Below are positions 14,216 through 51,600 of a stretch of 64,000 nucleotides of DNA, piece after piece. Under the pieces are notes generated by a model, which saw nothing but the letters and a program-made list of their open reading frames with translations, searched no databases and had not been told where the DNA came from. The DNA is from Iningainema tapete BLCC-T55 (GTDB lineage: Bacteria; Cyanobacteriota; Cyanobacteriia; Cyanobacteriales; Nostocaceae): positions 15,784-79,783 of the forward strand of contig NZ_JACXAE010000034.1 in the NCBI RefSeq assembly GCF_014698965.1, read 5' to 3'. A program made the position numbers and the translations under genes. Numbering within the stretch: position 1 is the first letter of the stretch; the number at the start of each line of letters is the position of its first letter.

Positions 14216-14218
14216 CCC

Positions 14219-14815
14219 ATGAATCCTTTTATCGGTTATCACCTCGCCACAAGTCACAATCTTCTTTCCTACAGCCAAAAACTCCAAGAATACTGGCTTG
14301 CATCAAACGGTCTTTTCGTGCGATCGCACCGCCGCGAGTTAGAGGTTTGTCTGCAAATTGCCCTGACTCAGATTGCTGGACTACAACCCATTGAACCGTA
14401 CTTCCGCCTGATAGTCCCAAAAGTCAAGAGCCAGATAATCACGGACATCATTAACACTGCTACTATCAACCAAGAGCAGGAAATCCTTTTCTACCTGGGT
14501 GTGGCAAATAACCAATGGTGGTTCCATACCCCGTTGCAGACAGCTTCCTCAACCCAAGTCGCATCCCTAGAAAGTTCACTCTCACAAACCTATACAGAAG
14601 CGCTAGTAGAAATACACAGTCATGGAAATCTAGCAGCTTACCCTTCAAGTACTGATAATGAGGAGGAAAGAGGGAAATTTCGAGTGTTCGCCATCATCGG
14701 TACGCTTGATGCCACTCCCACAATCTATACCCGTATCGGGATCTACAATCACTTCTTTCCAATCGACTCCAATTTAATATTTGAAATCCCGGCTCACATT
14801 ATATGCTTGAACTAA
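14219..14815 (+). CDS. PRTRC system protein A, JAB/JAMM peptidase-like
   Basis: The C-terminal half contains LVEIHSHGNLAAYPSSTD, a complete JAMM metal site of form H-x-H-x7-S-x2-D: H133, H135, S143 and D146. JAB proteins cleave isopeptide or C-terminal bonds of ubiquitin-like proteins, so this is the candidate deconjugase or processing enzyme of the cassette. The remaining residues (GKFRVFAIIGTLDATPTIYTRIGIY) match the family. Its last 13 bases overlap the ThiF gene. The intact motif argues for real enzymatic activity. Confidence 0.9.
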   Translation: MNPFIGYHLATSHNLLSYSQKLQEYWLASNGLFVRSHRRELEVCLQIALTQIAGLQPIEPYFRLIVPKVKSQIITDIINTATINQEQEILFYLGVANNQWWFHTPLQTASSTQVASLESSLSQTYTEALVEIHSHGNLAAYPSSTDNEEERGKFRVFAIIGTLDATPTIYTRIGIYNHFFPIDSNLIFEIPAHIICLN

Positions 14816-19460: not shown

Positions 19461-19485
19461 CAACCATTCATACTCACATTTGCAT

Positions 19486-20886: not shown

Positions 20887-20896
20887 AAATCTGCTG

Positions 20897-20917
20897 AGGG
20901 AGGAAGTAACCCTCCCT
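20897..20917 (+). other. intercistronic hairpin between clamp and dnaX
   Basis: AGGGAGG (20897-20903) pairs with CCTCCCT (20911-20917). There is no run of T behind it (tacaaaaaac), so it is not an ordinary terminator. It may protect mRNA or attenuate. Confidence 0.5.
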
Positions 20918-20973
20918 TACAAAAAACCCGTGGAAAAATCACTTTGCTCAAAAACTACCACCCACATCAACAT

Positions 20974-22260
20974 ATGTATCAACCCATACACCTAAAATAC
21001 CGTCCTGAAACCCTAGCAGATCTCATCGGACAAGAACACATCGTCCGTACCCTACACAATGCGATCGCTCAAAATAAAATTGCTCCTGCATACCTATTTG
21101 CCGGAGCTAGAGGTACTGGCAAAACCAGCACTGCCCGCATCCTCGCCAAATCTCTCAATTGCCATTCCGCAAATTCTCCCACTACCCAACCTTGCGGTAA
21201 ATGCAACTCTTGCCGCGCGATCGCACTCTCAAATTCACTTGATGTAACCGAACTAGACGCCGCCAGTAAGTCTGGTGTGGACTCGACGAGGGACATCATT
21301 GAAAAACTAGGGTTTGCGACTGTCGAAAGCAGGTACAAAATTGTCATAATCGACGAATGCCATGCTCTATCATCTGCTGCGTGGCAAAGCTTGCTCAAAA
21401 CAATCGAACAACCCCCAGCACACGTAGTATTCATACTTTGCACTACGGAGGCGCACAAAGTTCCAGATACAATTAGTTCTCGCAGTCACTGGTTCGATTT
21501 TCACACACCCAGTATCCAAACTATTGTCTCCCATCTGGCACTAATTGCCGAAAAAGAAGAAATCAAGGTTACAGAAAGCGCCCTCCGTACTATTGCACAA
21601 AGTAAAAACAAACATATGCGTGACTGTCAAACCCTACTCGATCAGCTTAGTAACCTCGACACTGAAATTACCGCCAACTGGGTTTGGGAAATTACAGGTT
21701 TAATTCCCGAATACGATTTATTAACAATTCTAGAAAACCTTAGTCAAGGTAACGCAATCAACAGTATCAAAATCCTTAAAAGCAATTATGAATTTGGAAA
21801 AAGCCCCTTCAATATCTACACTGACTTAGTTAGGATATTCAAAGATTTACTAATTGCCAAAGCTAGTGGGGGCGAAAACCTCACTGAAAGAGAAGATGAT
21901 ACTTGGAAAGAACTAGTAAATATTGCTTGCACTTGGGAGATTAAACACATCCAGTCAGCAATCAGCTTAGTTAGTTCAAAATATACGCTTATGCGAGATA
22001 ACCTCGCTCACTTGTGGCTAGAAACTACACTGATAGAACTTGCTCAAATCATGGAAACAAAGACAAAAGAACAACCCTGGGCTAATTGGAAAACAATCCA
22101 AGACGCGATAAATTGGAGTAAAGAAAAACTCCCACATTTATCCCAATCTGAACTCGAAGTACACTGGAACAATCTTACTCCAATTAATGGGAAAAAAGCA
22201 CCAGCATGGGTACAAATGGTACAAAAGCTTCAGATAGAATCTCGATTAGAAACAGCCTAA
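20974..22260 (+). CDS. dnaX: DNA polymerase III gamma/tau-like clamp loader subunit
   Basis: I choose ATG 20974 (MYQPIHLKYRPETLADL), which is where DnaX proteins begin; an upstream TTG at 20944 adds ten unrelated residues. The Walker A motif GARGTGKT (44-51), the zinc module CGKCNSCRAI, Walker B VIIDECHALS and sensor I region ISSRS are all intact. At 428 residues it has the gamma-like ATPase and collar regions but a much-shortened C-terminus, so tau-type contacts with DnaE and DnaB are probably missing, consistent with a PolB replicase. With delta and delta' it would load the clamp encoded just upstream. Confidence 0.92.
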   Translation: MYQPIHLKYRPETLADLIGQEHIVRTLHNAIAQNKIAPAYLFAGARGTGKTSTARILAKSLNCHSANSPTTQPCGKCNSCRAIALSNSLDVTELDAASKSGVDSTRDIIEKLGFATVESRYKIVIIDECHALSSAAWQSLLKTIEQPPAHVVFILCTTEAHKVPDTISSRSHWFDFHTPSIQTIVSHLALIAEKEEIKVTESALRTIAQSKNKHMRDCQTLLDQLSNLDTEITANWVWEITGLIPEYDLLTILENLSQGNAINSIKILKSNYEFGKSPFNIYTDLVRIFKDLLIAKASGGENLTEREDDTWKELVNIACTWEIKHIQSAISLVSSKYTLMRDNLAHLWLETTLIELAQIMETKTKEQPWANWKTIQDAINWSKEKLPHLSQSELEVHWNNLTPINGKKAPAWVQMVQKLQIESRLETA

Positions 22261-23549: not shown

Positions 23550-25367
23550 ATGAATTACAACCACCGAGATTTTATTACCAAATCTGGTAATAAAATCATC
23601 GTTAATGAAGAAAAACTTGACATATTCTGGTCAGATACTACCCCAATACCTGAGTGGCATCCCACGGTAAATATTGCCCCGTACTCTAGTCTCAAAACTC
23701 TGGTAGTCGATATTGAAACGGCAGGGATAAACCCAAGAGAAAATCGGATCTATGCAATTGGCTGCATGAGCGAGATAGGGGAGATTGCCATCTTTATGGA
23801 TCAAGCCGAAAGTAAAATCCTCCAGGAGTTTCTCTTCCATCTAGAAGCAAGCAAACCAGAAGTAATTTACACCTACAATGGAACAGAATTTGACCTACCG
23901 TTTATTATCACCCGCTGCGAGTTACACGGCATTCCTCATCCGTTGAGAATTGCATCTAAGACACGAATCATCCAAACTGCCCAAATACGCGGCGAACCAC
24001 TGGAGATTCGAGAGGTATTCATCCGCAACTGCCAGCACGTAGATATCTTTATTTGCGTTCTCAGGTGGGATTTTGTTGCTAAAGAACTGACCAACGGGCG
24101 ATCGCTTAAACAAGTGGTGCTAGAAATGAGATTGCGCTCCCTTGGGCGACTGGTTCTCCCCTACGAGGAAATTCTAGCTTGCTGGAAAGCTGGTTCTGGT
24201 AATCAGGGATGGCAGAAAATTAAGGAGTATCTCACCTACGACTTGGAAGATACTCAACTTATAGCCAACAGGCTTGTGCCCTCATATTACTATGAAACAC
24301 TAGTTGTACCGGGGATGAACCTCCAGCAGTTAGCACTCGCTGGTAACGGTACAAAGTGGGAAAGAATTTTTGAGCATTACTATCCTGGATACAAACCCAA
24401 ACCCGATCGCAAGTACAAATTTCAAGGAGGTTGTGCCTACTCCATTCCAGGACTATACAAAAAAGTTGGATACATCGATATCAGTTCCATGTACCCCAGA
24501 ACCATATTGTCAAAGGGAATTGTCTCTCGCAAGGATACAAAGCGAATCGGGTTGAGCATCTTGCAATATTTGGTAAATGAGAAATCAAGACTGGAACAAC
24601 TTGCTGCAGCCGGAGACATTGTTGCCAAGGAAAAAAGAGAATCCACTAAAGTTTTGGCTAATTCTCAGTTTGGATTCTTCGGAACATCTGAACTTGCCTT
24701 CAACGATATGGAAGCAGCAGCCCTGGTAACAGCCTACGGTAGGCGCATTCTACAGTTCATGATTGAGGTAATCAACAACAGTGGCGCAACTCCCATAGAA
24801 GTTGATACCGATGGTGTGTTCTTTACCCACCCCAACCCAGAAGAAGTGTATGCCACACTTCAATCTCAATTACCCAGAGGGATAATTGTCAAATTAGAGT
24901 TTATTGCAGAAGCGATGTTCATTCCCCAGAGGGGAACTAAGAACTATCTGTTATGGCTGAAAGATAACAGGATTATCCACAAAGGTAGCTGGAGAAGTCG
25001 CTCCCGCTCGAAGTTAGAAAAGGAATTCCCGGTTGAATACTTAACTTACTTAATCCAAAACCAATTCACAGCAGAGTCATATTTCAAAGAAGTAAAAACA
25101 CAGATTTTATCGGGAAAATACCCAGTAGAAAAACTCGCCATCACTCGTAAGATTCGTGAGGGTGAAAAGGAACTTCTCAAACTAGGAAAACCCGGAGATG
25201 TCGTAACTTACTATTACGGAGTTAGAGGTTTAACAAATATCAGCAGTAATGAGAAATATTCACCTCTACACTATCTTAACCTGATCGAACACTCGCGGTC
25301 AGAAATCCTCAAGATAGCTGCTCCCGAAATACTAGAAACCAACCTGCGTCAATTATCTCTGTTCTAA
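23550..25367 (+). CDS. family B DNA polymerase with 3'-5' exonuclease and C-terminal clamp motif
   Basis: The 605 residues contain all catalytic motifs. Exonuclease: D54 and E56 in VDIETAG (Exo I), N110 and D115 in YNGTEFDLPF (Exo II), Y230 and D234 in YDLEDTQ (Exo III). Polymerase: D310 in DISSMYP (motif A), K367 and N371 in KVLANSQFG (motif B), D419 and D421 in DTDG (motif C). The protein ends LRQLSLF, a bacterial clamp-binding pentamer at residues 601-605. It is compact and lacks the TPR regions of protein-primed phage polymerases in any obvious form. It is probably the plasmid replicase, used with the clamp at 19486 and the primase at 10770. Confidence 0.92.
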   Translation: MNYNHRDFITKSGNKIIVNEEKLDIFWSDTTPIPEWHPTVNIAPYSSLKTLVVDIETAGINPRENRIYAIGCMSEIGEIAIFMDQAESKILQEFLFHLEASKPEVIYTYNGTEFDLPFIITRCELHGIPHPLRIASKTRIIQTAQIRGEPLEIREVFIRNCQHVDIFICVLRWDFVAKELTNGRSLKQVVLEMRLRSLGRLVLPYEEILACWKAGSGNQGWQKIKEYLTYDLEDTQLIANRLVPSYYYETLVVPGMNLQQLALAGNGTKWERIFEHYYPGYKPKPDRKYKFQGGCAYSIPGLYKKVGYIDISSMYPRTILSKGIVSRKDTKRIGLSILQYLVNEKSRLEQLAAAGDIVAKEKRESTKVLANSQFGFFGTSELAFNDMEAAALVTAYGRRILQFMIEVINNSGATPIEVDTDGVFFTHPNPEEVYATLQSQLPRGIIVKLEFIAEAMFIPQRGTKNYLLWLKDNRIIHKGSWRSRSRSKLEKEFPVEYLTYLIQNQFTAESYFKEVKTQILSGKYPVEKLAITRKIREGEKELLKLGKPGDVVTYYYGVRGLTNISSNEKYSPLHYLNLIEHSRSEILKIAAPEILETNLRQLSLF

Positions 25368-26885: not shown

Positions 26886-26971
26886 ACTGGTAAGTGGATA
26901 ATCGTCCTAATTTAAATCACCACTTATCGCTAACACAACTTCAAATCGAAGTTGTGTTAATTAAACAAGCG

Positions 26972-27931
26972 ATGCTAATACATATACTAAGTGGCGAGGA
27001 TACCGTATCCTTAAACAATAGAATCAACCAAATCGTCGAGGAACATACTCATCCTCAATGGCGCACATTCAACTATATCAAACTAAATTCTACTAATCAA
27101 GATACTATTGCAGACGCCATCACTGAAATCCGCACTATCCCTTTTGGAGAGGGAGCAAAAGTAGTTCACATAAACCAAGCGTCAATATTCAACAACTGTG
27201 CAGATGAAATCATTCAGTTTCTGTCAGAAAATTTAAAAGCTATTAGTACTACAAATGGAAACGTCCTATTAGTCACTTCTACTAAAATAGACTGTAGAGG
27301 CAAAGCAATAAAACTACTTTCCAAATACGGAAATATAGAGGAATTTCCTCTCATTCCCAGTTGGAATAAAAAGGAAATTAGGAATCTCATCAATCACAGT
27401 GTTTCTAAATACAATCTATCACTTACGGAAGATGCAATAGATTATTTAGTTGACGCTATTGTCAACAATACAACACGACTTGATAGCGAGTTGAAAAAGC
27501 TATCAATTTATGCTGCCGGAGAAATTTTAAATAAGGAAACAATAATCCCTCTTGTTAACAACAGCACCTCTAAATGCATAGAACTTGCTCATGCTTGTCT
27601 TACAGGAAAGGTAAAAGTTGCCCTGGAGTTACTCAGCAATTCAATGTTGAGCAACGAACATCCCCTTATAATCGCAGCTACACTGTACAGTTGCTTCCGC
27701 ACTTGGCTAATTGTCAAAGCAGGGATGATAGAAAAACTCAAGGATGAAGAAATAGTTAGGCTGGCTAACTTAAAAAATCCCAAAAGACTATATTTCCTCA
27801 AAGCAGAAATACAGTTTGCTAACGTTGAAAAACTCAAGCAAAGCCTAGAGTTTATTTGCTCTCTAGAACATGAACTCAAGCAAGGAATAAATAACCTTGA
27901 AGCACAAATTATCAAACTTTGCAGCATTTAA
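26972..27931 (+). CDS. holA: DNA polymerase III delta subunit-like (HolA)
   Basis: I start at ATG 26972 because MLIHILSGEDTVSLNNRI matches the usual HolA start (short beta strand then GED). A GTG at 26894 would add 26 residues. The 319-residue product shows the HolA features NTTRLDSELKKLSIYA in the lid domain and a helical collar at the end (FICSLEHELKQGI). Delta opens the clamp during loading. The next gene, delta', starts 5 bases after its stop, so both are coupled. Confidence 0.8.
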   Translation: MLIHILSGEDTVSLNNRINQIVEEHTHPQWRTFNYIKLNSTNQDTIADAITEIRTIPFGEGAKVVHINQASIFNNCADEIIQFLSENLKAISTTNGNVLLVTSTKIDCRGKAIKLLSKYGNIEEFPLIPSWNKKEIRNLINHSVSKYNLSLTEDAIDYLVDAIVNNTTRLDSELKKLSIYAAGEILNKETIIPLVNNSTSKCIELAHACLTGKVKVALELLSNSMLSNEHPLIIAATLYSCFRTWLIVKAGMIEKLKDEEIVRLANLKNPKRLYFLKAEIQFANVEKLKQSLEFICSLEHELKQGINNLEAQIIKLCSI

Positions 27932-27936
27932 GAATT

Positions 27937-28779
27937 ATGAAAAACCCCAATTTTGATAGCATCATTGGACAGCATACTGCCAAAGTCATCTTAAAAAATG
28001 CAATTTCCAGTAACAAAATTGCTCCAGTATACCTCTTTTGGAGCAATATTGATGGTATAGGAAAAGCAAAAACAGCTTTTGCCTTTACCGCTGCATTAGT
28101 AGAGGACGAAAATATTACCAATCATCCAGATGTATTGGTGATAAAACCAAGTTATCCCCCAGAAGGAAAAGCCTTCCATACGCCAGCATCTATTCGTATT
28201 GAAGAAGTACGAACTATCATCAAATTTACCAGCACTACTGCTGTCGCCGCCAAACGCAAGGTGGTAATCCTCCATGAAGCAGAAACACTACAAGAAAAAA
28301 GCTCAAACGCACTACTTAAAACCCTAGAAGAATCGCCTAATTGCGTCTTCATTCTCATTTCGTCTCATCCAGATAAGATAAGCGCCACTATTACAAGCCG
28401 CTCGTTTGTTGTCCCATTTACACGTCTAACACCAGATGAAGTAGCAAAAGTTCTGGATTCATTGCCAGAGTACAAACAAGTCAGCCAGGAGATAATAGCA
28501 CTCGTCAATGGTAGCCCAGGTGTAGCAATAAAGCATATCAAATATCTGCAATCTATACCTTCTATTGTCAACCGTCTCCAAACACCGCCCAGAAGCATTA
28601 CCACAGCCATCAGCCTCAGTAATGAAATCTCTTCTCTAGAATTTCCTACCCAGCTATGGCTAATTGAGTATTTGCAGTACCTTTGGCAAGAAAAAAGAGC
28701 AAAACTGCATTTATCAAAGCAAAAGCTACTACAGCAAGTGCAAACTCGTGCTGTTTGGGATACAGCGCTGATACCTTAA
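27937..28779 (+). CDS. holB: DNA polymerase III delta' subunit-like (HolB)
   Basis: The chosen ATG is at 27937 (MKNPNFDSIIGQHTAK), the natural start for this AAA+ family; six upstream in-frame residues are not needed. The product (280 aa) has the delta'/RFC fold: IIGQHTAKVILKNAI, a degenerate P-loop GIGKAKTA, the ALLKTLEESP segment and ISATITSRS (sensor I/SRC-like). The nucleotide site is altered relative to DnaX, as in other delta' proteins that do not hydrolyse ATP. It completes a clamp loader with DnaX and delta. Confidence 0.85.
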   Translation: MKNPNFDSIIGQHTAKVILKNAISSNKIAPVYLFWSNIDGIGKAKTAFAFTAALVEDENITNHPDVLVIKPSYPPEGKAFHTPASIRIEEVRTIIKFTSTTAVAAKRKVVILHEAETLQEKSSNALLKTLEESPNCVFILISSHPDKISATITSRSFVVPFTRLTPDEVAKVLDSLPEYKQVSQEIIALVNGSPGVAIKHIKYLQSIPSIVNRLQTPPRSITTAISLSNEISSLEFPTQLWLIEYLQYLWQEKRAKLHLSKQKLLQQVQTRAVWDTALIP

Positions 28780-31543: not shown

Positions 31544-31569
31544 TTAAGTAAACACTTCGGTTTGAGAGT

Positions 31570-31604
31570 CCGCATCTGCACACCAAACTCCCCTACAGAT
31601 GCGG
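31570..31604 (+). promoter_or_regulatory. inverted repeat in the ssb leader
   Basis: CCGCATCTG (31570-31578) and CAGATGCGG (31596-31604) form a perfect 9-bp stem with a 17-base loop, 56 bases before the chosen ssb ATG. No T-run follows, so a leader structure or operator is more likely than a terminator. Confidence 0.45.
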
Positions 31605-31660
31605 CTTACGTCAAAGTAAAAATTACACATAATCAGTTAATAACCACAGAAGGAAGACTC

Positions 31661-32074
31661 ATGCTTACGCAAATAAGAGCGGAAACATTAACAAGTACTC
31701 CTATGAGCAACTTCCTCAACATAATCATGCTAGTTGGCAGATGCGGACAAGATCCCGAACTGAAGTATTTCGAGTCGGGCGCGGTAAAAGCAAGCATTAG
31801 CCTTGCTGTCAGACCTCCCTATAGAAGCGAACAAGCCCTCTGGTTCGATTTAGTCGCATGGGGTAATCAAGCAGAAATTATTGGAAATTACGTTCGCAAA
31901 GGAACTCAAATTGCGATTACAGGCGAGTTTGGGTTCGACCGCTGGGCTGATAGAAATTCCGGCGTGACAAGACAACGACCGGTAATTACAGTCAATGCCA
32001 TTGAACTACTGGGAGGACGCAAAGAAGAACAACCCAGCAACACCGAAACAGCGATCGCTAACGCCAATTTTTAA
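31661..32074 (+). CDS. ssb: single-stranded DNA-binding protein (OB fold) without acidic tip
   Basis: The ATG at 31661 has AGGAAG upstream; a GTG much earlier (31562) would read through the leader hairpin and is rejected. The 137-residue product has the SSB OB-fold marks: NIIMLVGRCGQDPELKYFESG, LWFDLVAWGNQAEII and KGTQIAITGEFGFDRW. The C-terminus ends TETAIANANF and lacks the acidic D-D-(I/L)-P-F tip that most bacterial SSBs use to recruit partners. The next gene does have that tip. Confidence 0.88.
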   Translation: MLTQIRAETLTSTPMSNFLNIIMLVGRCGQDPELKYFESGAVKASISLAVRPPYRSEQALWFDLVAWGNQAEIIGNYVRKGTQIAITGEFGFDRWADRNSGVTRQRPVITVNAIELLGGRKEEQPSNTETAIANANF

Positions 32075-32841: not shown

Positions 32842-34005
32842 CTAAATCAGGGTTTCAACCTCCTGTAGCTTTTCTTGAAGGGCTTGGCGCAGTTCGGCAA
32901 GTCGGGTTCGCCCCAATTCATTGAGATCAATCGATTGGACGGTTTTGATGGTTTTGTCCATCTGTTTGTCCTGCTTGGTTTTGGAATCTGGGGTATCGTA
33001 CTGCAAAAGCTTTTGCTTGACTAGTGTTCTAGTCTGCGAGAGTGATAGTTTCTCTTGAATAACTTGCTGAGTTACCTGAGTGCGGATTGCCACAGCTTCA
33101 GTTTCATCAACATTCAGTGCGAGAGAGGAGAGTTTGTTAAGTTCTCTCGCTTTGCTGCTTTCCAGCCCGAGAGAGCGAATGACACACTTGAGATCTTCTG
33201 CCAGTTTAAGTAGGGGAAAGATATTGTTGTTGATGGATACTGGATTTAGTTGTAGCCCCAGCAAAACTGAGACAATATCTTGTTCCTCAAGGTCTTTGAA
33301 GTCAGCCGTTTCTAGCCACTGCTGTTGAGTTGTCAGGTCGGCATCCTTAATCAGTGCAAGCTCCTCAAGGGTTTTGCTACGAATTCGTCTGTTAATGAAA
33401 GCATTAAGAAACTTTGGAATCTCGTCTTCTCGGTCTTTGAAGTTGGGGTATTTATGAATGGTTAATCGAATCAGAGCAGTTGCTAAGTCAAGGTCATGAA
33501 GTTTTTCGGAGTGAATACTGGTTACTAGTTGGCCCTCAAACACTGCTGCTTCGTCCTGAGCATCCTCTTTGAGCAGAAACACAGCTTTTAGGGTTGTCAT
33601 TCCAGCTAATGGAGCCGATCGCCACCTAAGTTCTCCGTCAAATAATTTGTACCGTCCATCAAGTTGTGGAATTAGCACAATTGGGTTTTTCTGCCCCTGC
33701 CGACGTAGACTCTCCACTCGTTCTTGAATTATCAATTCTGGGAAAGTTTGTCTAGGTTGAGTAGGGTCGGGATCGATGAGGTCGATCGCAATGTCGTGTA
33801 TTCCGCCTTGGTTAGCTAGTTGATTGGTGAGTGACTCAATTTGTTGCTCTAATACAGTTTTTTCTTCAGAACTGAATGCATTTGCTCGCAGTTGTGTAAT
33901 TTCCGCTTCGAGTTCCTCTACCTGACTTTTAAGTTGGTGGATTTGCTGTGTTTGCCCTGCTTGCCCGAATAATTGACTCATCTCCACGGGTTTTTTGCTT
34001 GCCAT
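32842..34005 (-). CDS. parB: ParB-family partition protein with N-terminal coiled coil
   Basis: This 387-residue protein has an N-terminal coiled coil (about 20-65), then the ParB/sulfiredoxin nuclease-like domain: DLIDPDPTQPRQTFPE, PIVLIPQLDGRYKLFDGELRWRSAPLAG (about 107-135), and helical DNA-binding and C-terminal parts ending in another coiled region. The GELRWRSA segment corresponds to the CTP-contacting G-E-R-R motif but is altered. It is 5 bases downstream of parA in the same transcript. It should bind parS-like sites; the palindrome cluster at 35311 is the obvious candidate. Confidence 0.85.
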   Translation of the reverse strand: MASKKPVEMSQLFGQAGQTQQIHQLKSQVEELEAEITQLRANAFSSEEKTVLEQQIESLTNQLANQGGIHDIAIDLIDPDPTQPRQTFPELIIQERVESLRRQGQKNPIVLIPQLDGRYKLFDGELRWRSAPLAGMTTLKAVFLLKEDAQDEAAVFEGQLVTSIHSEKLHDLDLATALIRLTIHKYPNFKDREDEIPKFLNAFINRRIRSKTLEELALIKDADLTTQQQWLETADFKDLEEQDIVSVLLGLQLNPVSINNNIFPLLKLAEDLKCVIRSLGLESSKARELNKLSSLALNVDETEAVAIRTQVTQQVIQEKLSLSQTRTLVKQKLLQYDTPDSKTKQDKQMDKTIKTVQSIDLNELGRTRLAELRQALQEKLQEVETLI

Positions 34006-34010
34006 TAAAA

Positions 34011-34868
34011 TTACTCCGTCATTAACTTGATTAGGCGCTCAACTATTGGGTTAAAGTCTTCACTTGCATCACATCCTGGTCGGTACAAGTGTAGAGGTAG
34101 TCCTGCTCCACTAGCTTTGAGGTGGTAATTAGATTCTCTAATGTAAGGGAAGCAATGAATACCCATCTGTTGAATCAGGAAAGGAAGAGTTTTGGCTGGG
34201 TCAATGTCAGTTCTTGGTTTCCCTTTTTTGTCTAACCCCAGAATATCCCGGTGTGCCCCTACGTCGTATAAGTCCACCCGTGTAGGTACAAACCCCAAAA
34301 TTTCGGGTTTGGGTTTGAGTCTTAGGTCATCCACTTTGCTGTAGAACCAATCCAAAAAGCCCGCGAAAGCTCCCGTATCTTTGTATTCTGGTTTGATGGG
34401 AACCAGTACATGCGTGCTTGCTGCTAGTGCCATTAACCCCATTGGCTCTAAAGAGGCAGGAGTATCAAAGATAATCAAGTCGCTCTTTAAGGGGAAGTCT
34501 TCCAATTTATCTTTGAAAGTGTAGTGACGGCGACTGTAATTGTATATTTCTCCGATGCTTTCTTCTAAAAATTTACCACCTTGTATAGCCGTTACGGTAG
34601 AAAGATGTTCAGTCCAAAGTGGAACAAGGGGGTAATCACCTTTGAATGTTTTTTTAAGGACAGTAGCAAGAGATTGCTCCATAGACGCAGGTGCAAGTCT
34701 TGCAAAAATGCACAATGACCCATTTTGGTCGAGTTCTATCAGGGTAACTTTATACCCTTTGGCACCAACAGCATACGCTAAATGAGTTGCCATTGTGGTT
34801 TTCCCCGATCCGCCCGCATTGCTGGCGATTGTTAATCGAACCTGGGTTCGAGCAGGTTTCTTTTTCAT
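34011..34868 (-). CDS. parA: ParA-family partition ATPase
   Basis: I choose ATG 34868 (MKKKPARTQVRLTI) with gaagg upstream; an in-frame start at 34910 adds a different leader. The 285-residue protein has Walker A SNAGGSGKTT at 16-25, Walker A' ELDQNGS, and Walker B LIIFDTPA. The signature lysine of ParA deviant Walker A (KGGxGKT) is replaced by Ala18. This may alter ATP-dependent dimerisation, though some plasmid ParA proteins share the change. ParB lies immediately downstream, and the pair probably segregates this replicon. Confidence 0.85.
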   Translation of the reverse strand: MKKKPARTQVRLTIASNAGGSGKTTMATHLAYAVGAKGYKVTLIELDQNGSLCIFARLAPASMEQSLATVLKKTFKGDYPLVPLWTEHLSTVTAIQGGKFLEESIGEIYNYSRRHYTFKDKLEDFPLKSDLIIFDTPASLEPMGLMALAASTHVLVPIKPEYKDTGAFAGFLDWFYSKVDDLRLKPKPEILGFVPTRVDLYDVGAHRDILGLDKKGKPRTDIDPAKTLPFLIQQMGIHCFPYIRESNYHLKASGAGLPLHLYRPGCDASEDFNPIVERLIKLMTE

Positions 34869-35310
34869 GGAAATACCTTCTAAAGGGGAAGCAATTATTA
34901 AAATGCTCAACAGTATTCAGTTATCGAAATGGCTCCTGGAGTATTCGTTGTGTCGCTAACTGCCTTTTGGGTAGAAGGCAACATCTGGGCATTTTTCAGG
35001 TCGATGCCTAAGACTCATGGATTTATTGGCTTTAGCCAATGGCGATGGTAAGTCGCGAGTGAACCTGAGTGGAAAATTGTTAGAGCAGAAATTTTTCTGA
35101 CCTACTTAAAAACCCCACTGCTCCTAATGAATCGGAGTTTCATAAGTTATTTAAGCAGAAGTCAACGGCAAAATGTTCCACTTAGTCGTCAGATTTTTGA
35201 GTTAATTTTCGGGTTTTAGGAGACTTTGCCACTCTCCCCCGTCAATCGGAACCTATAACCCAAAGTTGAGGTTGCTCCATTTTGAGCAAGGTTTAGCCCA
35301 AAATGTTGTG
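34869..35310. other. parA upstream region
   Basis: No gene is seen in these 442 bases. The stretch includes tttttctgacctacttaaaaacccc and a tgctccattttgagca inverted repeat near 35275. The promoter of parAB should be here, but I could not pick a clear -35/-10 pair. Confidence 0.4.
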
Positions 35311-35376
35311 TTTTACTACTAATAGTAGTAAAACTAACGTTAGTTTCATGCTCTAGAGCAAAACTAACGTTAGTTT
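35311..35376. promoter_or_regulatory. cluster of four palindromes near parA (candidate parS/operator)
   Basis: In order: TTTTACTACT-aat-AGTAGTAAAA (35311-35333); AAACTAACGTTAGTTT (35331-35346), perfect; TGCTCTAGAGCA (35349-35360), perfect; and a second exact AAACTAACGTTAGTTT (35361-35376), 30 bp after the first. Two identical 16-bp palindromes around a third is typical of a dimeric protein's binding array. Lying 440 bp upstream of parA, it could be the ParB centromere, an operator, or part of the replication origin. Confidence 0.7.
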
Positions 35377-36030
35377 ATTCTACACTGATTGGTTGTCTAC
35401 CACTTGTATTAACCGAAAAAAGTTATGACTAATTCTTAGGGGTTAATTGTGTTACCTTGTTGTCAGAAGGCAGAAGTACGTTCGTGCAGCGACGACCTTC
35501 GCGATCTTCGACGACCTTCGCGCCGCGTCTCTGAAGGACAAGGAGAAGGAGAAGGCACGCAAGCAAGGGCAATTGGATGAATTACACTTGTAAAACAAAT
35601 TTCCTACTCGGAAAAATTTATTAAGCACAAGTGTAGATGCGTCCATAGCCTTAAAACAATCTTGAGAGATGCACTTATCATATCCAGTTCGGTAATATTA
35701 CGCATCTAATTGGAATTAGATAAAGAAGTAAACAATTTTCCCAATCTGTTGTAGCGGAATTTTTCAAGTTGTTGAACGCCAGTTCTGCAACGTCTCATAC
35801 ATCTAAAGCATTTTCATTTATAACACCAGCATTTTGGCAATATTTATAGCAAATGCACAGTCAGCTTAATGATTTTTAGGTAGGTGCATACAAGAGTGCG
35901 ATTGCCCTTTGGGCACTGCGCTCTGCGCAATCGCGTAACGCACCCTACGTCTCAAACCTCAACAACTACCCGATTTTCCGAGAGTTGTACGTGTTACAAC
36001 TCTTATCGATTGCGCATTGTAGCCTCTTTG
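35377..36030. other. non-coding region with a short tandem repeat
   Basis: CGACGACCTTCGCG occurs at 35490-35503 and again at 35509-35522, a 19-bp period. Further on, G/C-rich phrases (cctttgggcactgcgctctgcgcaatcgcg, near 35905-35935) are of the cyanobacterial dispersed type. I see no convincing gene; the short ORFs at 35452-35646 and 35884-36120 look random. Confidence 0.5.
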
Positions 36031-36340
36031 TCATCCCGCAATCTCACCATCAATATGTGGGGCAACCTCTTGTTCAAAGAACTCAGAGTCTATTGCTTTA
36101 ATTTTTCCTGCCATTTTTAGATGCCAACCAGCTTTTTTTGCAATGGCGATCGCCTGCTGCGATCCCTTGTCTGGCGCTAAGCGTCCTAAGAATGCCAAGT
36201 ATGGTGGTTCTTGATGTTGGGCAACAAAAGGATAATTTTATAAATCAATTCCGTGGTAGATTGTGCCTACGTAGTTCAGGTTTATTTGACGTTGCGCGTT
36301 ACTAATACTGACGTATGCTTGCTGCTTATGGTGGGATGAT
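36031..36340 (-). pseudogene. glycosyltransferase (GT4-like) fragment
   Basis: Reading the minus strand gives AYVSISNAQRQINLNYVG, TIYHGIDL, a stop, then PYLAFLGRLAPDKGSQQAI and AIAKKAGWHLKMAGKI, followed by a stop near 36031. VGTIYHGIDL and FLGRLAPDKG are standard pieces of the GT4 glycosyltransferase core. Both ends are missing and there is an internal TAA, so it is a broken remnant, perhaps brought by recombination with a chromosome or another plasmid. Confidence 0.75.
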
Positions 36341-36727
36341 TCCTAAGCGGGAAAACCTGAGTGCGATTAATCCGTCTCCCTCTGCATCCACGCCGAAGCA
36401 TCAAACGGTAAGACATCTTTTCTTTCACTCCTGCAATAGCTGTACCTTGCTTGGAGATGAACCCCATTAAAACCAGATGCGACATAAACTTCTAAAGTTA
36501 TCTCTTAAATCCGTTTCTATACCCGTAGGGTTAGAAACGGTAGTTCAAAAATTGAGTCGCCGCAACTAAATTTATTGTGTCAGATGATAAGCACCAATGC
36601 AGTTCTTCTACTTTTCTTTTAACCTGAAGGTTATCAAAATCTACCACCAAAGTTATGTTAATTTATGAGAACAACCGTAGATTGAGTTGTTCAATAGCAT
36701 ATGGGGTACAAGTGGGGGCTATGCGTA
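36341..36727. other. non-coding region
   Basis: I see no gene here. It has a tRNA-free, moderately AT-rich sequence with an aacccta-type palindrome (tacccgtagggtta, near 36520-36533). Confidence 0.4.
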
Positions 36728-36829
36728 CCCTAATCGCTTTTTTTTTAAATTAACCCCTATACAGGGTATATATAGGTTATTCTTAGGGTATATTTAATAT
36801 ATAAAGTTGTTATACCCCATTTGACCCCT
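36728..36829 (+). promoter_or_regulatory. AT-rich leader with repeated TATACCC/GGGTATA words before an actin-like gene
   Basis: Between a run of T and the ATG at 36830 the words ACCCCTATA, AGGGTATATATAGG, AGGGTATATTTA, TTATACCCC and ACCCCTATG alternate in both orientations. CCTATA (36765 area) and TATAGG form an inverted pair. The regular spacing looks like an operator for a dimeric repressor, probably the ribbon-helix-helix-like protein encoded just downstream of the actin-like gene. Confidence 0.55.
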
Positions 36830-37783
36830 ATGAAGAACATTCACGCGAATCAAAAAATTTTTTGTGCAGGTTTTGATAATGGCTATGGAAGCGTCAAACT
36901 GTTGGTCGATGGTTTTGATGTGGTGAGAATTCCCAGTTACATCTCACGAGAAGACATGGAGGATGTACCCGGTCGGGTGGTTTATAACGGCAACGCCTAC
37001 ACTATTGGTGAGTCGGCTTTCCGCACTGGATACTACTTTGAACGGAATACGGACAACAACATTAACAAAGTAAATAACGCCCTCATCACTTTATTGGGTG
37101 CGTTAGCTCACTTGCCATATCGTAAGGCTTGGCACTTAAAGCTCGTTGTTAGCTTGCATGACGTGGCTCTAACTGATGACTTGCTGAAAGTGCTTAATGG
37201 TGAATATCAACCTTTATTGGCTGGCAAGCTATCTGATATCAAAGTAGAAGTTCTCAAAGTCGTACCTGAAGGTATGGGTGCTCTGGTGGGTAGAAAACTC
37301 CCCAAAAAGTTAACTGTTGTAGATTTTGGGAATGGGACAACACTTTATTCTCGTTACAACCAAGGTAAAAGAGAAGTCCATACCCCCTACGCTGCAGGAG
37401 TGGAAGTTCTCATTGGTGAGATTGCCAAGAAGATGAAACCTCTCAACGGTGGTAAGCTTGGGGACTTATCGAAAATTCGCTTTTGTTTAGAAATGGGACA
37501 CACCAAATACAGCCGCGATATTGATATCAAAGATGTTTACAGTGTTTGCTTAAAGGAATGGTATGAAAGCTATTTGAAAAAACCAGTCAATCTCGCTCTT
37601 GATGCCAAACACCAAGGGGATGACATTTGGGCGATCGGTGGCGGTTGCTTGCTTCCTGGTTTTAAAAAACTGCTCGTGCAGAACGGGTTTGAAATTCTAG
37701 ACAACCCAGTAGAGGCCAATTCTTGTGGACTATTTCAAATGGCTAAAACCATTGTCAACTCTTCTTCTACCAACGAAGCTTAG
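36830..37783 (+). CDS. actin-like ATPase, ParM/Alp type (plasmid segregation)
   Basis: I start at ATG 36830 (MKNIHANQK), as the upstream TTG at 36821 adds three residues only. The 317-residue protein carries the ASKHA phosphate loops AGFDNGYGSVKLL (near residue 14), VVDFGNGTTLYS (near 175) and an adenosine motif AIGGGCLLPGF (near 275). This is the ParM/archaeal-actin plasmid type: such proteins form filaments that push plasmid copies apart. A small adaptor-like gene follows 28 bases later, the usual type II par arrangement. Confidence 0.85.
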   Translation: MKNIHANQKIFCAGFDNGYGSVKLLVDGFDVVRIPSYISREDMEDVPGRVVYNGNAYTIGESAFRTGYYFERNTDNNINKVNNALITLLGALAHLPYRKAWHLKLVVSLHDVALTDDLLKVLNGEYQPLLAGKLSDIKVEVLKVVPEGMGALVGRKLPKKLTVVDFGNGTTLYSRYNQGKREVHTPYAAGVEVLIGEIAKKMKPLNGGKLGDLSKIRFCLEMGHTKYSRDIDIKDVYSVCLKEWYESYLKKPVNLALDAKHQGDDIWAIGGGCLLPGFKKLLVQNGFEILDNPVEANSCGLFQMAKTIVNSSSTNEA

Positions 37784-37811
37784 CAATTACGAATTACGAA
37801 TTATATTTATT

Positions 37812-38114
37812 ATGGTTTCTCAGCAAGATAAAACTCCAGAAAAAGTCCGAATCAAAGACAGCTATCGCGATCGCATCAAAGCAGAATCGCAACGATTGGG
37901 TAAAAGTTACCTTGAGACGCTATACTTTATTGTTGATTGCTACTTTGCGTTTAAGCAGGGCGTGTTACCAATACAGTCTGCGGTAGTTAACACCCAGACA
38001 ACCCCCATAGAACAAAATCAGCCTACTGTAGATGAGTCAACTCATACCCCAATTGACCCCCAAGTTGAATCCGTTGATGATGAGGAAACTTTTACGCTTG
38101 ATTGGGAATTGTGA
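37812..38114 (+). CDS. small ribbon-helix-helix-like adaptor, 100 aa
   Basis: The ATG at 37812 is preferred over an upstream start inside the previous gene. KVRIKDSYRDRIKAESQRLGKSYLETLYFIVDCYF has a short strand followed by two helices, the pattern of small RHH proteins such as ParR or StbB-type adaptors. The rest is a Gln/Thr/Pro-rich acidic tail ending DDEETFTLDWEL. It is the natural centromere-binding and filament-docking partner of the actin-like protein upstream. Confidence 0.65.
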   Translation: MVSQQDKTPEKVRIKDSYRDRIKAESQRLGKSYLETLYFIVDCYFAFKQGVLPIQSAVVNTQTTPIEQNQPTVDESTHTPIDPQVESVDDEETFTLDWEL

Positions 38115-38276
38115 ATGACTATAGATTACCAAACTACTGAGCGCTGCACCGACTGTGACAAGTTCCGGCTCCGTGGTAGGAAGAATTGCGGCGTTGCACA
38201 TTTGCGGACTGGACATTTCATAGCTATATTATACAATTCATCCCACAATTATACAACGCCGAAATTTTTTGTCTAA
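38115..38276 (+). CDS. small Cys-rich protein, 53 aa
   Basis: ATG directly follows the stop of the previous gene, so it is probably translationally coupled. The product has CTDCDKF...NCGVAH, a C-x2-C plus C/H arrangement like the N-terminus of the Cys-rich protein 38490-39020. It ends in a Tyr/Asn-rich tail. Too short for most gene finders, but the cysteine pattern and coupling support it. Confidence 0.45.
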   Translation: MTIDYQTTERCTDCDKFRLRGRKNCGVAHLRTGHFIAILYNSSHNYTTPKFFV

Positions 38277-38489
38277 CTGCCAGACATCTGAGCAAGTATA
38301 GCCGTCGTCACATAGGTTAGGACATTATTGATTGCAAGTGATTTCATTCTGGAACATCTTCAACAAAAGGTGGGCTTGAATGCACATGCTCAACTTTCTG
38401 TCAATGCGTAAGTTCTAACGCTATCTAGTATCACCTCCAAACCCACTTGCTACGCACTATTTAACGATTAAATATAGGGAAATAGGAAC
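38277..38489. other. short intergenic region
   Basis: Nothing coding is seen. The stretch before it includes the repeated word TTATACAATT (38228-38256). Confidence 0.4.
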
Positions 38490-39020
38490 ATGAATTGCTC
38501 TACATGTAGTTTCTTTACAGTCAACCAAAATTTAAGTTGTACAGTTAACCCGACACACTGTAAAGGAGGATGGACTCAGGCGTGCAAGGAATACGAACAC
38601 GATTTTAGTAAAGAAATACGCTGCGGAAATTGTGCTACTTTTTCAATACGGCATTGTAGCCTTTTGCATCTATCAGTTGATGCAAGTGAAAAAGGATGCA
38701 TAAATTTCTTATCCAATAATGAAGTTGAGGAAGAATTAGCCCGTTGGGAGCAGTACCAACCACAAGTTATAGCTTCTTTTGAAGAAAGGGAGCTAATCTT
38801 TAAACTCATTAAAGAACTATTTTGGCAACAAGATAAACGCAACATAATGTTATATACATGCACTCTTAGTATGGAGGAATTGTACTATTGGGTAAGTAAC
38901 TATATTGACAAAGGTATCCTTGCGCATGAAGAAGATGGGCAGTTAAAAACCATCACATGGAAACAAAATGAAATCAATGAATACGACCTCGTATTCAAAA
39001 AGGAATATACCTTCTTCTAA
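38490..39020 (+). CDS. Cys-rich hypothetical protein, 176 aa
   Basis: Residues 1-75 hold about ten cysteines with CSTCSFF, CGNCATF and similar pairs, suggesting two tandem zinc-binding modules. Residues 85-176 are helical and charged (FEERELIFKLIKELFW), then a winged-helix-like end (LYYWVSNYIDKGILAHEEDGQL). I do not recognise the family. It starts after an AGGA site and is closed by a terminator at 39030. Confidence 0.55.
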   Translation: MNCSTCSFFTVNQNLSCTVNPTHCKGGWTQACKEYEHDFSKEIRCGNCATFSIRHCSLLHLSVDASEKGCINFLSNNEVEEELARWEQYQPQVIASFEERELIFKLIKELFWQQDKRNIMLYTCTLSMEELYYWVSNYIDKGILAHEEDGQLKTITWKQNEINEYDLVFKKEYTFF

Positions 39021-39062: not shown

Positions 39063-40307
39063 CTAGACATTATCATCTATAGTCAAAAAACCTTCAGGAG
39101 CTTGACGGGGAGTATAATCTGGAACGAATTTCCGAGACTTATGCAGCAATCTAACATTATCAGGCTGCGAAGGTCGAGCTTGTTCCTCCTGAATACGCAC
39201 ATAGCCAGTGATCTTATCAAGCTGAGTAATCATATGTTGGTGCAATGCGTAAACATCCGCCATTCGATTACCCATGCCAGAAGATATCTCATCGGGTATA
39301 AAAATATCAGCGTGCCAAGACACTTTAATCCCCTCTTTTTGGAAGTAAGCGTCTATCTCCGGGCGAATGTAATCGGCAGTCCCTCCGCAAAATACTAGTT
39401 CTTCAATATCTTCATCCATCTTTGAGCGCAGCCACCGAACAATAGCACGCCAATACTCATCTCTGGCAAGCAATAGTGCCTTCGACATCAGCTCGCCATC
39501 AAGTTTAATTTCCTCGCGTTTGCGCTTGCGCGAGAGTTTTTGCATCACCAGGGGGTCGCAACTAGCGCCAGCTTCGACCAATACCTCGACAATGTTGGGA
39601 TTATCAGAGCTTAGTCCCGATGCCTTGGAGACAAAATTATCTACCAACCAGGACATCCCAAAATTACTGGTTATTCCCGCACCACTTGAGCCACCTCGAA
39701 CAGTGAAAATACTTGCATTGCGATAACCAAGCATCACGTACATCTCAGCCAGCATATTCTCGCCAAACACTCTCTTGCGTTGGAAAAACACACCACTTCC
39801 TTCTGAAGCTATGTTACAATGCAGCGTTTTTACCCGCATCCTACCCGTTGGCGTATCGAAAGAGCGAAATGCATCCTTCAAGCGGGTTTGTAGTTGTTCT
39901 TTATCTTGCACTTCCCCAGGCGGCAGCAGGATACTCAAGTAAGCTGCAACATCGTTATCAAGGTTCAACTTCTGCTTTGCCAGCCAAATTGCACCGCACA
40001 CCTTAGGAACCGCTAGTTCGTACTTAAGCTCTCTTAGCTGCAATATACCCCCAAACCGACGACGTGCTAACTCTCCCAGCGCGTAGTATTCTCCGCCTAT
40101 TCCTACCCAAGCACGAGATTCGGGTAGCCCTTCTGCTTCAACAGTCTCAACCGAGGGCTTACTCACGTCTGCCACCTCTGAATCCACGAGCAAGACAAAA
40201 GGCTCCCCTTCTGGATACTCTTGAACAATAGCTTTTGTCTTGCTGCCACCCATATCGATCGTTAACGCAATTTTCTTTAAGTCTGCTTTCTCTTTAGTTT
40301 TTGCCAT
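39063..40307 (-). CDS. second actin-like ATPase, ParM/StbA type
   Basis: I start at ATG 40307 (MAKTKEKADLKKIALTID), since the upstream in-frame TTG gives a poorly supported leader. The 414-residue product has ALTIDMGGSKTKAIV (phosphate 1, residues 13-27), VRGGSSGAGITS (phosphate 2) and LVFCGGTADYIRP (adenosine). This belongs to the actin/hexokinase fold of segregation ATPases, but is not closely similar to the protein at 36830. The C-terminus is a Pro/Arg-rich tail. A role in segregation or plasmid positioning is likely; the pairing with the gene at 40836 is inferred. Confidence 0.8.
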   Translation of the reverse strand: MAKTKEKADLKKIALTIDMGGSKTKAIVQEYPEGEPFVLLVDSEVADVSKPSVETVEAEGLPESRAWVGIGGEYYALGELARRRFGGILQLRELKYELAVPKVCGAIWLAKQKLNLDNDVAAYLSILLPPGEVQDKEQLQTRLKDAFRSFDTPTGRMRVKTLHCNIASEGSGVFFQRKRVFGENMLAEMYVMLGYRNASIFTVRGGSSGAGITSNFGMSWLVDNFVSKASGLSSDNPNIVEVLVEAGASCDPLVMQKLSRKRKREEIKLDGELMSKALLLARDEYWRAIVRWLRSKMDEDIEELVFCGGTADYIRPEIDAYFQKEGIKVSWHADIFIPDEISSGMGNRMADVYALHQHMITQLDKITGYVRIQEEQARPSQPDNVRLLHKSRKFVPDYTPRQAPEGFLTIDDNV

Positions 40308-40439
40308 ATCTTTAGTTTTATTAATCTTTCCTATTGTTCCCAATTTAACCGAACCGAAATAAATACACCGTTATTAAACAGTTTCTTTACAGCAGCTAAC
40401 GCTGTTTTTACAGGAAACACATATGGAGAGAAAAATCCT

Positions 40440-48678: not shown

Positions 48679-51600
48679 ATGACTATTCAAGCTAAACATT
48701 TTGATACTAGATTAAATCAATGGATTCATACCGATGGTAATACTAATAACCCAAATTCACTCTTAAAAGAAGAACTTAACAATACCCTACTAGAACATTT
48801 CTTTCCTGGGGTAAACTTTTCGTTCGGACATATGGACGAAAAGTCTACTGCTCGTCAGCTAGAACAGCACCCTGAAGGACACAAATTATTACTATCATCA
48901 AAAACTCGGTTATTATATGGACCGTCCGAATGTCTAGACACAATTAGACAATTATGCCCAGACAATAAAGATAGAGGTGCTTATGGTTCTATTTTTCTTG
49001 GGTCATGTGAAAATGCCGTCAACCGAGAGTTAAACATCTTGATTGTTGATGACAGTAATGGTGAAAATGGCGGCATCATTAACAATGACCAGGCATATCG
49101 ACTAACTGGCGACTGTTACGGGCAAATCTCCACAGAATTATATCACGAACTTACCAACCACTTTGAAGGTGATAAATACCGCGTCATCCAGCACCGCTTC
49201 GGTTGGACTGACCAGGACGGGGATGACACAAAATACCGCTTCGGCAAAGGTACACTGCGCCCTGCAAACCTCGACCAAATCCTCGACCATCAAGACCCCA
49301 ATAACCAAACTAAAGTTGACTTAATTCTTCCTATATCTGCTTTCAAAGGAACCGATAAAGATAACCCCAATGGCCCAACCAAACCTCAAATTCAACCAGG
49401 GCTATATCAGCAAAATATTTGGTTAGGGGAAAAATCCCAGTCTGAACTCGGAAAAACAGCTATCTCGCAGCTGCTTGCCTCCTTCCCAAATGGAGTAAAA
49501 GACTTTACCGAACAGTTAGAACTTGAAGCTAAAAAACTTAAAGAAGCACAGGACGATCCCCGACAACTTGCCCAACTTTATTGCGAAAAGTACGAGTTAC
49601 GGAAAGCCTTTCTAGAGGAACAAGCTACTACACTTGAGGAACAAGCCGAAAGCGATTCAACAGTAGCATCCGAGTTAGAGACACTGCGCGATCGCCTTAC
49701 TACTGACTCGTTCATTTACAAACTCATCAAAGCTGATCTGCTTGGAGTTGGACAGCTGCTGGAAACCGAGAAGGTACAGCGAGAACTCGCCCGGTTCGTC
49801 CAAAACGAGTGGAAGGAAATTGCCATCGGTAAAACACTCACGTTTGAGCGGGCAATGGTCATTCCCTCCAAAGACCTGCAAAATGGCGAAATCTCCATCC
49901 CCCATTACCAAGATGGAGAACAAGTCCTTAACTTTCGCTCCCCCTTCCTCAACTCAAATGGTTTGTGCGTCTCAACTAACAAAGTAGTTAATGACATACT
50001 TGGACCCGATGGCAAACCCCTCGCAGGTGTTATCGCTGTCTCGGATGTTTCAAGCGATCGCATTTACAATCGCTTAAACTCACAAATTAAATCTATTCTT
50101 CCCGAAGCCCAAGGGAAAAGTCTTCAACTAAAAGGTATTGAAAATTACTTAGACCAAAATATCGGTAAGCTCGAAACCAAAGATAAAATAGAATTTACCT
50201 ACAAGTTTAACGAGTATATTAAAAAACTTCAATCTGCAGGTTACGAACTAGAAATTCTTCCCCAAGAGTCCGAACAAGAGCGACAAGCCCGCGATTACGA
50301 TGGTGACTGCATCGGATTCAAGCAAGCTTGCAAGTATCCCAACCTCACAGCCGAGGCTCTTGAGCGTAACCTACCCGAAAACGCTTACGACCCAACTGTT
50401 AAACTCAAAAAACAATCTTTCTATCAGGAAGACGGTAGCCAGCCTGAGTTTGAAGAAATCGCTATCCACATGAGCGATGGCATGAGCGTAGGTGTTATCA
50501 ACAATCACCTTACCTCAATCGAAGCGCTAGAGTCAGAAATTACCATATTGAAAAACTTTGGTAGTGAGAAAGACCAAATTGACTACGTACAGCTTGTAGC
50601 CAAACACTACGAAGATTTATTCAAAACAGAAGCTTGGGCAAAATCTAAGGGAATCGAAGGTAAGGAGGTTCCCGACAAGTATCGCGCTTCCTTGTCCGAG
50701 TTTGTCCAAAAAGCCCTAAAGGAACCCCTCACTCAGGACAATGCCTTGAAGGCAATGAGCGTCAACACGAAAATGTACCGCGAAATGATTGCCGAAGCAG
50801 CATTTCAAAACCAAATTGCGGTTGACCTCTTCAAAAGTGCCAAAAAACCCGAAATGGAGATTATCCGCAGTAACAGTCGGATTCTCCACCGGGAGGTCAA
50901 CTACATTAAAGATAAAAAAAAAGATGTCTATATCGATGAAACCATCAAACCAACTGGATACTCACCTGTTGAATTACTAATTGCTAAAACTAATCAATAT
51001 TTTGAGAAAGCTCGGCTCGAATCACGGGAACTCGTCCAATTTCAAGATTTATTTAAAGGGGTTGAATTTTCAAATTCACAGCGCTTACAATGCACCATAG
51101 CAAAGAAAGAATTTGACGAATCATTCAACCTAGCTAATCAAATATCTAGACAAAAAGAAACAGAAAAGGGACCATTGGCAAAAATTACCCTTGCTAATGG
51201 CAACCAAGTAAGTGTAACTAACCTTCTACAGTATGATAGCGAGTTCATCTGGAAGGCTAAAAAAATTACGTTCAAGCTATCAGAAACACCAGAAGAAAAG
51301 CGCAATAGCAACCGCCCGCATAAATATGTTGTCTATGCTCAAATCAATGATGAAACTGAGAACGGTAAACCTAAGTTTAGAGCATTAGGAACGCTTGCTA
51401 AAGAGCAGGAAAACAAACTGGAAGAAATAGGAATTACTCCTAGACAAGAAGTAACCTCTAACAAAATATCCTTCCAACCTGAACTAAGTGAAGGACAGAT
51501 TAAACTTCTCTACCAAAAAGCTTATCAAGCAGCAGAAGAGTTTTATAATTCGATTCCCTCAGATCAGAAACTAGCAATGGCGGCTGCCACATGGGCAGTA

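Follow-up and report, generated by a model that had tools for sequence, protein, structure and literature searches.

Two identical 16-bp palindromes upstream of the parAB operon on a contig of Iningainema tapete BLCC-T55 are, on the sequence comparisons presented here, very probably the parS centromere of a type I ParABS system, read by the neighboring ParB protein and carried by a probable large plasmid of the Nostocales. The stretch of DNA analyzed (the window; 64,000 nt) lies within a contig of 178,643 bases in the 9.5-Mb genome. The contig is probably a large Nostocales plasmid, judging from its relaxase and from the presence of the same parAB on complete plasmids.

Table 1. Palindromes, genes and other elements around the parAB operon, with positions counted from the first letter of the window.
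Feature	Position	Strand	Description
P1	35310..35334		GTTTTACTACTA-a-TAGTAGTAAAAC; 25-bp palindrome with 12-bp arms; putative accessory site
P2	35331..35346		ParB-box copy 1, AAACTAACGTTAGTTT; 16-bp exact palindrome; predicted parS site
P3	35349..35360		TGCTCTAGAGCA; palindrome between P2 and P4; probably accidental
P4	35361..35376		ParB-box copy 2, identical to P2; predicted parS site
parB	32842..34005	-	N-terminal helices, ParB-CTPase fold and ParB/Noc-type DNA-binding domain; predicted to read the palindromes
parA	34011..34868	-	Walker-type ATPase, 285 aa from ATG; matches to Pfam AAA_31 and CbiA, both above cut-off
AT-rich region upstream of parM	36701..36829		11-bp periodicity; possibly parC-like
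parM-like	36821..37783	+	Actin-type ATPase, first ATG at 36830; Pfam ALP_N over cut-off
Possible ParR-type adaptor	37812..38114	+	100 aa, downstream of parM; ribbon-helix-helix character judged by eye

The palindrome pair and its conservation

The palindromes lie between the divergent parA (minus strand) and parM-like (plus strand) genes. P2 and P4 start 30 bp apart, 463–508 bp upstream of parA, and P1 overlaps P2 by 4 bp. A preliminary description of this DNA had reported two exact copies 30 bp apart, and both their positions and a whole-genome search bear this out: AAACTAACGTTAGTTT occurs exactly twice in the whole 9.5-Mb genome, both times in the array. The many scattered copies that the description had named as speaking against a ParB site were absent, both exact copies being at parAB. 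Four further places in the genome matched AAACTAACGTTAGTTT at two mismatches, and the same sequence read backwards as a control gave 12 places at up to two mismatches. Within the window, only P2 and P4 matched at up to three mismatches; this window-only search is weak by itself, because two such loose matches were also reached in 11 of 100 shuffles of the window. P1 matched one place in the genome within three mismatches (control, none).

Perfect palindromes of at least 16 bp were found 1.08 times per simulated 64 kb and are hence ordinary singly; others occur in the window, for example at 1370, 22430, 42123 and 45750. Because a lone palindrome of this length is expected about once per 64 kb, the improbable part is the identical pair. 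Two identical palindromes of at least 16 bp within 100 bp appeared in none of 200 first-order Markov simulations, and it is for this pair that the earlier judgement of an arrangement far above chance holds. Three even palindromes of at least 12 bp within 70 bp were found 0.005 times per simulation, compared with one case in the window when P3 is counted.

The most similar ParB (96%) among the matches listed came from Hassallia byssoidea VB512170 (L046, the same locus as L125), whose intergenic stretch is 94% identical to that of the window (673/715). P1, P2 and P4 together carry no substitution in 53 positions. P3 was rejected as a functional element, since 4 of its 12 positions are changed in Hassallia and the palindrome is lost there while P1, P2 and P4 are unchanged; this comparison suggests that P3 is probably accidental. 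The array had been described as four palindromes starting at 35311. P1 truly begins one base earlier and the other places are as described, and what is left of the four after the loss of P3 is two identical sites, perhaps together with P1.

Among the 14 related loci that carry the same type of palindrome as the window (class A, see below), P1 was seen only in the window and Hassallia. In the remaining 12, the P2/P4-type sequence alone recurs of the whole array. Besides the window, paired copies were present in L046 (30 bp), L058 (31 bp) and L050, which is the HK-01 plasmid (27 bp), and the sequence is single in ten of the 14. The sites of the window are farther from parA than those of the other class-A loci, Hassallia excepted. 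A further sequence, ATTGGCTAAAGCCAAT at 35025-35040, corresponds in Hassallia to a perfect palindrome, ATTGGCTATAGCCAAT, some 170 bp upstream of parA.

Palindrome classes in related parAB loci

We searched 217 genomes of the same family, including that of the window, for ParB, and obtained matches in at least 103 of them at E 1e-30 or better. From the matches listed, 80 loci were picked by hand; G082:C4 (partial) and others were left out, and the length of DNA available upstream of parA varies between the loci. Alignment of the whole intergenic regions with MAFFT was tried and rejected, as the palindromes did not come into register. The regions were too divergent, and palindrome scans were therefore used instead.

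In 65 of the 80 loci, the 220 bp upstream of parA contain an 18-mer in which 8 or all 9 pairs are complementary, compared with 5 of 80 for an equally long parA-internal stretch and 4% of Markov shuffles (10 per locus). The best 18-mer of the window in this range reaches only 7 pairs, because P2 and P4 lie farther upstream. The palindromes were assigned to eight classes by patterns written after they had been inspected: class A, AAACTAAYRTTAGTTT (14 loci); class B, ACACTAACGTTAGTGT (2 loci); class C, GRAGTAAYRTTACTCC (11 loci); class D, CAKATATYRATATATG (20 loci); class E, with an ATTTTRAAAT core (14 loci); class F, TGAKATAACRTTATCTCA (7 loci); class G, TGGNATAACATTATTCCA (7 loci); and class H, TCGGATAACGTTATATGA (2 loci). 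Three of the 80 loci were unclassed (L075, with only 291 bp available upstream; L112; L114), and L114 does have a palindrome resembling class E, which escaped the pattern.

We compared the classes with a quick maximum-likelihood tree of 77 of the 80 ParBs, with SH-aLRT support only and with the three unclassed loci left out. Each palindrome class forms one side of one branch of this tree, and the eight labels need 7 changes, which is the minimum, compared with a mean of 49.3 for shuffled labels. Six classes (A, B, C, F, G and H) have a branch support of 95 or more, whereas class E has 84 and class D only 62; L096 is a long branch within class E and its placement is unsure. Classes B and H, with two members each, say little about co-divergence. 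A Mantel test was added because the class patterns post-dated inspection. It compared the distance of the best palindrome of each locus, picked by rule, with ParB distance in the 43 of 80 loci that were left after 90% dereplication, L075 and L112 without a clear site included. The correlation was r 0.67–0.72, and none of 2000 permutations was as high. Lower values were obtained in the controls, namely r 0.40 for the best parA-internal palindrome (0 of 2000 permutations as high) and r 0.06–0.22 for fixed upstream 18-mers (0 to 81 of 2000); they are not nil because related loci share DNA anyway. As regards recognition-helix residues, phylogeny and specificity are confounded in this set of loci. 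From the tree and the distances, we conclude that the palindrome sequence has diverged in step with ParB, giving at least eight classes; this would allow several plasmids to share one cell even when their parAB are related.

The genome-wide distribution of the palindromes was examined for two of the classes. AAACTAAYRTTAGTTT was found at 25 places in 20 of the 217 genomes. Its forms with a CG, TG or CA center account for 18 places, all close to parB and only at parAB, and the genomes that carry them are exactly the 14 with a ParB at least 75% identical, among the matches listed. The seven places with a TA center are all away from class-A parAB, five of them in one genus (g8). The class-C form GGAGTAACGTTACTCC was found exactly in 10 of the 217 genomes, once in each and always at class-C parAB, and the eleventh class-C genome has two one-mismatch copies at parAB. 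Away from class-C parAB, one-mismatch variants of GGAGTAACGTTACTCC were present at 17 places compared with 6 in the backwards control (for example GTAGTAACGTTACTCC and GCAGTAACGTTACTCC; G111:C35, G118:C2, G119:C21, G145:C104 and others), and the excess is perhaps made up of sites of another protein.

In the genome of the window, four ParB-type proteins exceed the TIGR00180 cut-off, on four contigs. A second related ParB of this genome (contig 14, L084) is accompanied by a class-D palindrome that is single in the genome and lies at that parAB. Classes A and D are each at their own parAB, and thus the two related ParBs of one genome have private sites. Nostoc sp. ATCC 53789 carries plasmids of two classes, pNsp_a (class A) and pNsp_c (class C). 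The chromosomal parS, TGTTTCACGTGAAACA, has no exact copy in the genome, and its one place at two mismatches equals the control. That the array is a ParB/parS centromere had been proposed in the preliminary description, and the proposal gains support from the palindrome class, which tracks the ParB tree, and from the CG, TG and CA forms, which occur only at parAB across the 217 genomes.

The position of the palindromes bears on another explanation, in which they are only the operator of parAB, bound by ParB or another regulator, and the true centromere lies elsewhere. A palindrome copy starts within 50 bp of parA in 54 of the 77 classed loci (recounted by script, with parA starts extrapolated from tblastn), where a promoter or leader would be, so that ParB probably also regulates parAB in those loci. 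A promoter scan gave one weak sigma-70-like match, which overlaps P4 and is at chance level (shuffle mean 1.0). A pure operator would be expected at a fixed distance, however, and in class A a copy this close to parA is present in just 2 of 14 loci, the copies of the other loci starting 81 to 513 bp away. No other palindrome shared beyond Hassallia was seen upstream of the window parA, and the roles of operator and parS are not exclusive. At 463–508 bp from parA, the sites of the window are likelier to serve as a centromere. We consider an operator-only function improbable. In the lineage of the window, the palindromes may have moved or the leader may have grown.

More than one palindrome copy was found within 650 bp in 26 of the 77 classed loci. 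In L051, L053 and L062 the ParB box is centered in an inverted repeat of 44–50 bp with arms of 20–24 bp, which should be longer than one ParB dimer needs. In ten named plasmid loci parA always adjoins parB, and nine of the ten have a class A–D palindrome upstream of parA. One of these nine is a locus of Pseudanabaena galeata, which belongs to another order, with a class-D palindrome. In the tenth, L014 (Cylindrospermopsis curvispora), no comparable palindrome was found in about 300 bp upstream of parA. Plasmid-type parAB loci with class palindromes were also seen on contigs of 5–11 Mb (G124:C1, G072:C1, G102:C1, G066:C1 and G128:C1), where they are apparently integrated in chromosomes. A DNA-level search of a plasmid collection with the intergenic region of the window gave no match, and among the matches listed for viral contigs there was one weak ParB relative (31%).

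Partition proteins and the adjacent ParM-type genes

NCBIfam ParA/MinD-type matches to ParA begin at residues 7–14 and are all below cut-offs, and there is no room for an N-terminal DNA-binding domain; ParB is therefore the candidate binder. Window ParB matches Pfam ParB_N (5.7e-13) and exceeds the TIGR00180 cut-off. In an alignment of ParBs from 45 of the 80 loci plus the window, ParB_N was detected in all 46 rows and Pfam HTH_ParB in 17, the window ParB not among these. An AlphaFold2 model of ParB built with the 46 sequences had a mean pLDDT of 83.7, with residues 1–22 under 50, and matched structures of ParB, Noc and KorB (Foldseek and VIA-align). Its DNA-binding part matched Noc bound to its site (6y93) with Z 9.6 over 116 residues at 2.5 Å, and ParB bound to parS (6s6h) with Z 7.9. 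The 116 residues are spread over model residues 153–335, and hence the predicted domain has an insert of some 65 residues. The matches of the model to Noc and KorB indicate a shared fold only. The locus thus has several features of a type I ParABS system with a helix-turn-helix ParB, namely a Walker-type ParA beside ParB, a CTPase-fold domain, a predicted helix-turn-helix domain and a replicon-specific palindromic cis site.

The ParB family departs from chromosomal-type ParB in one of the CTPase motifs. Box II, GE(R/L)RWR, is kept in all 46 rows. In Box III (ENLQR), the E is absent from all 46 (T in 37, A in 6, S in 3), the N is kept in 5 and the Q in 1, so that the family lacks the combination of Box II and Box III residues by which a canonical chromosomal-type ParB CTPase is recognized. 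In another subfamily, two ParBs of cyanobacterial plasmids have VENLQR intact. The passages on Box III in PMC8494293 give ENLQR as the canonical motif and report that E111Q abolishes CTP hydrolysis by Bacillus subtilis ParB, and E135A has the same effect in Caulobacter ParB in the part of PMC8367383 that deals with it. With the glutamate missing in all 46 rows, standard CTP cycling is not assured. Nevertheless, the ParBs of SCP1, divergent in the same boxes, still hydrolyse CTP according to the relevant passages of PMC13245405, and for this reason the change in Box III is neither proof of a dead CTPase nor decisive for membership in type I. It also offers a further natural test of the residues that ParB CTPases need.

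The gene divergent from parA also has a weak NCBIfam ParM match, below cut-off. A ParM homologue is located upstream of parA in 32 of the 80 loci, including 9 of the 14 in class A, and several plasmid records annotate this neighbor as ParM/StbA. The putative adaptor downstream had no Pfam or NCBIfam match, and tblastn matched it in 23 of the 80 loci. In the region 36701..36829 upstream of parM, a lag of 11 bp ranked first in self-match among lags 5–40, and 1 of 2000 Markov simulations was as high; in a wider first cut upstream of parM, lag 11 was second, behind lag 20. An 11-bp period is expected of type II parC repeats. Among six regions chosen by eye, five showed the 11-bp period at 1 of 2000 simulations or better, and the sixth, of HK-01, at 119 of 2000. 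Elsewhere, type I and type II systems are known to occur together on a single plasmid, as described in parts of PMC13245405.

The proximity of the two systems means that the palindromes might instead be adaptor binding sites of the divergent parM-type system, as the intergenic region is shared in the 32 loci with a ParM homologue. We regard this as highly implausible: 45 of the 48 loci without a ParM match carry a classed palindrome (some of the 48 contigs stop short), the parM side has its own 11-bp-periodic region, and the palindrome class follows ParB.

The preliminary description had also offered an origin-binding site as an alternative, and in this form a replication initiator would bind the array as an origin or an iteron-type site. 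The window does encode much replication machinery (a primase at 10770, clamp, clamp loader and PolB-type protein), and parS sites are often near origins. Yet a scan of ten ORFs around the array gave no match to a replication-initiator family, the palindrome class tracks ParB, the named plasmid loci keep the palindromes beside parAB while their further neighbors differ, and two copies are few for an iteron array. The origin alternative is accordingly very unlikely, and we retain the reading of P2 and P4 as parS.

Other features of the window were recorded as well. Of its 33 ORFs of at least 180 aa, 25 were scanned against Pfam. The replisome genes lie at 10770-11747, 19480-22260, 23550-25367, 26894-28779 and 31562-32074 and encode a Prim-Pol primase, a DNA polymerase III beta clamp, a gamma/tau-type clamp loader, a PolB-type protein, delta and delta-prime-type subunits and SSB; it seems unusual for a plasmid to encode a sliding clamp and clamp loader of its own. 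At 13445-15642, Prok-E2 family D and ThiF-type genes resemble a PRTRC cassette. A second actin-like protein is encoded at 39063-40343, with weak ALP_N and weak FcmB matches, both below cut-off, and a 3308-aa protein at 48679-58605 combines a PIF1-like helicase part with a cpYpsA SLOG domain. In 34000-38500, Rfam gave nothing over the gathering score and the only tandem repeats were three short arrays.

Proposed function and comparison with known systems

From the computed sites, their conservation, their confinement to parAB in the forms tested, their co-divergence with ParB and the predicted folds, we infer binding, loading, spreading, regulation and partition as follows. A ParB dimer would recognize each 16-bp palindrome via its central helix-turn-helix domain. 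ParB would load at the palindromes and accumulate on neighboring DNA, and the ParA ATPase may then separate the plasmid copies over the nucleoid. A wider and tentative proposal, which we put forward as possible rather than probable, concerns one cyanobacterial plasmid ParB family as a whole: it may use eight or more parS codes, each distinct from the others, so that one filamentous cell can house many large plasmids that are related; it may work with a Box III without the canonical glutamate (T, A or S instead) and hence with a non-standard nucleotide cycle for clamp loading or release; and in many loci it may be accompanied by a back-to-back actin-type segregation system.

The preliminary description considered the array not to have been noted before, and indeed we found no description of the site, or of a Nostocales plasmid parS, in our searches of open-access literature. 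P2 and P4 offer a concrete parS candidate for a family of large cyanobacterial plasmids whose centromere we did not find described there, and the sites might serve to build stable vectors or to tag plasmids in living filaments. The eight natural pairs of ParB and palindrome form a set for studying how centromere specificity evolves and how replicons avoid incompatibility, with two of the palindrome classes side by side in the genome of the window.

In type Ia systems (F/P1-like), an N-terminal DNA-binding domain of ParA represses the operon, whereas the window ParA has no such domain. Chromosomal-type ParA, like that of the window, lacks it. The chromosomal ParABS systems of B. subtilis and Caulobacter, with parS TGTTTCACGTGAAACA, also share with the window the CTPase fold of ParB, its ParB/Noc DNA-binding domain and a 16-bp palindromic site. 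Beyond the CG center, however, the window site is unrelated to theirs, and the window ParB differs by its N-terminal helices (12–40 and 45–65), by its altered Box III and by what appears to be an insert in the DNA-binding domain. KorB of the RK2 KorB/IncC system (8qa9) was among the best matches of the whole model (Z 15.8, 201 residues, 6.2 Å). KorB acts at about a dozen operators across RK2, in contrast to the two exact sites of the window, which are both at parAB.

In the sections of PMC13245405 on partition, the SCP1 plasmid of Streptomyces is described as having a dual ParABS, whose ParBs have divergent CTP pockets and bind, with strict specificity, identical inverted repeats around their own operons, three per operon. 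These are two type I systems on one plasmid, whereas in the window a type I system stands beside a ParM-type one.

As far as the parS sections of PMC5450999 go, the locus is closest in logic to the systems of Burkholderiales secondary chromosomes and large plasmids (Bsr). There, as predicted for the window, parS is a 16-bp palindrome centered on CG and of narrow cognate specificity, and one imperfect palindrome is repeated five times upstream of parAB. The sequences and the host phylum differ from those described in that source, class A ending A-rich rather than T-rich. Compared with the same account, the system described here comprises eight or more classes within a single ParB family, of which some have CA or TG centers and one has an ATTTTRAAAT core. 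The divergence of Bsr parS sites is interpreted there as a means of avoiding incompatibility (PMC5450999).
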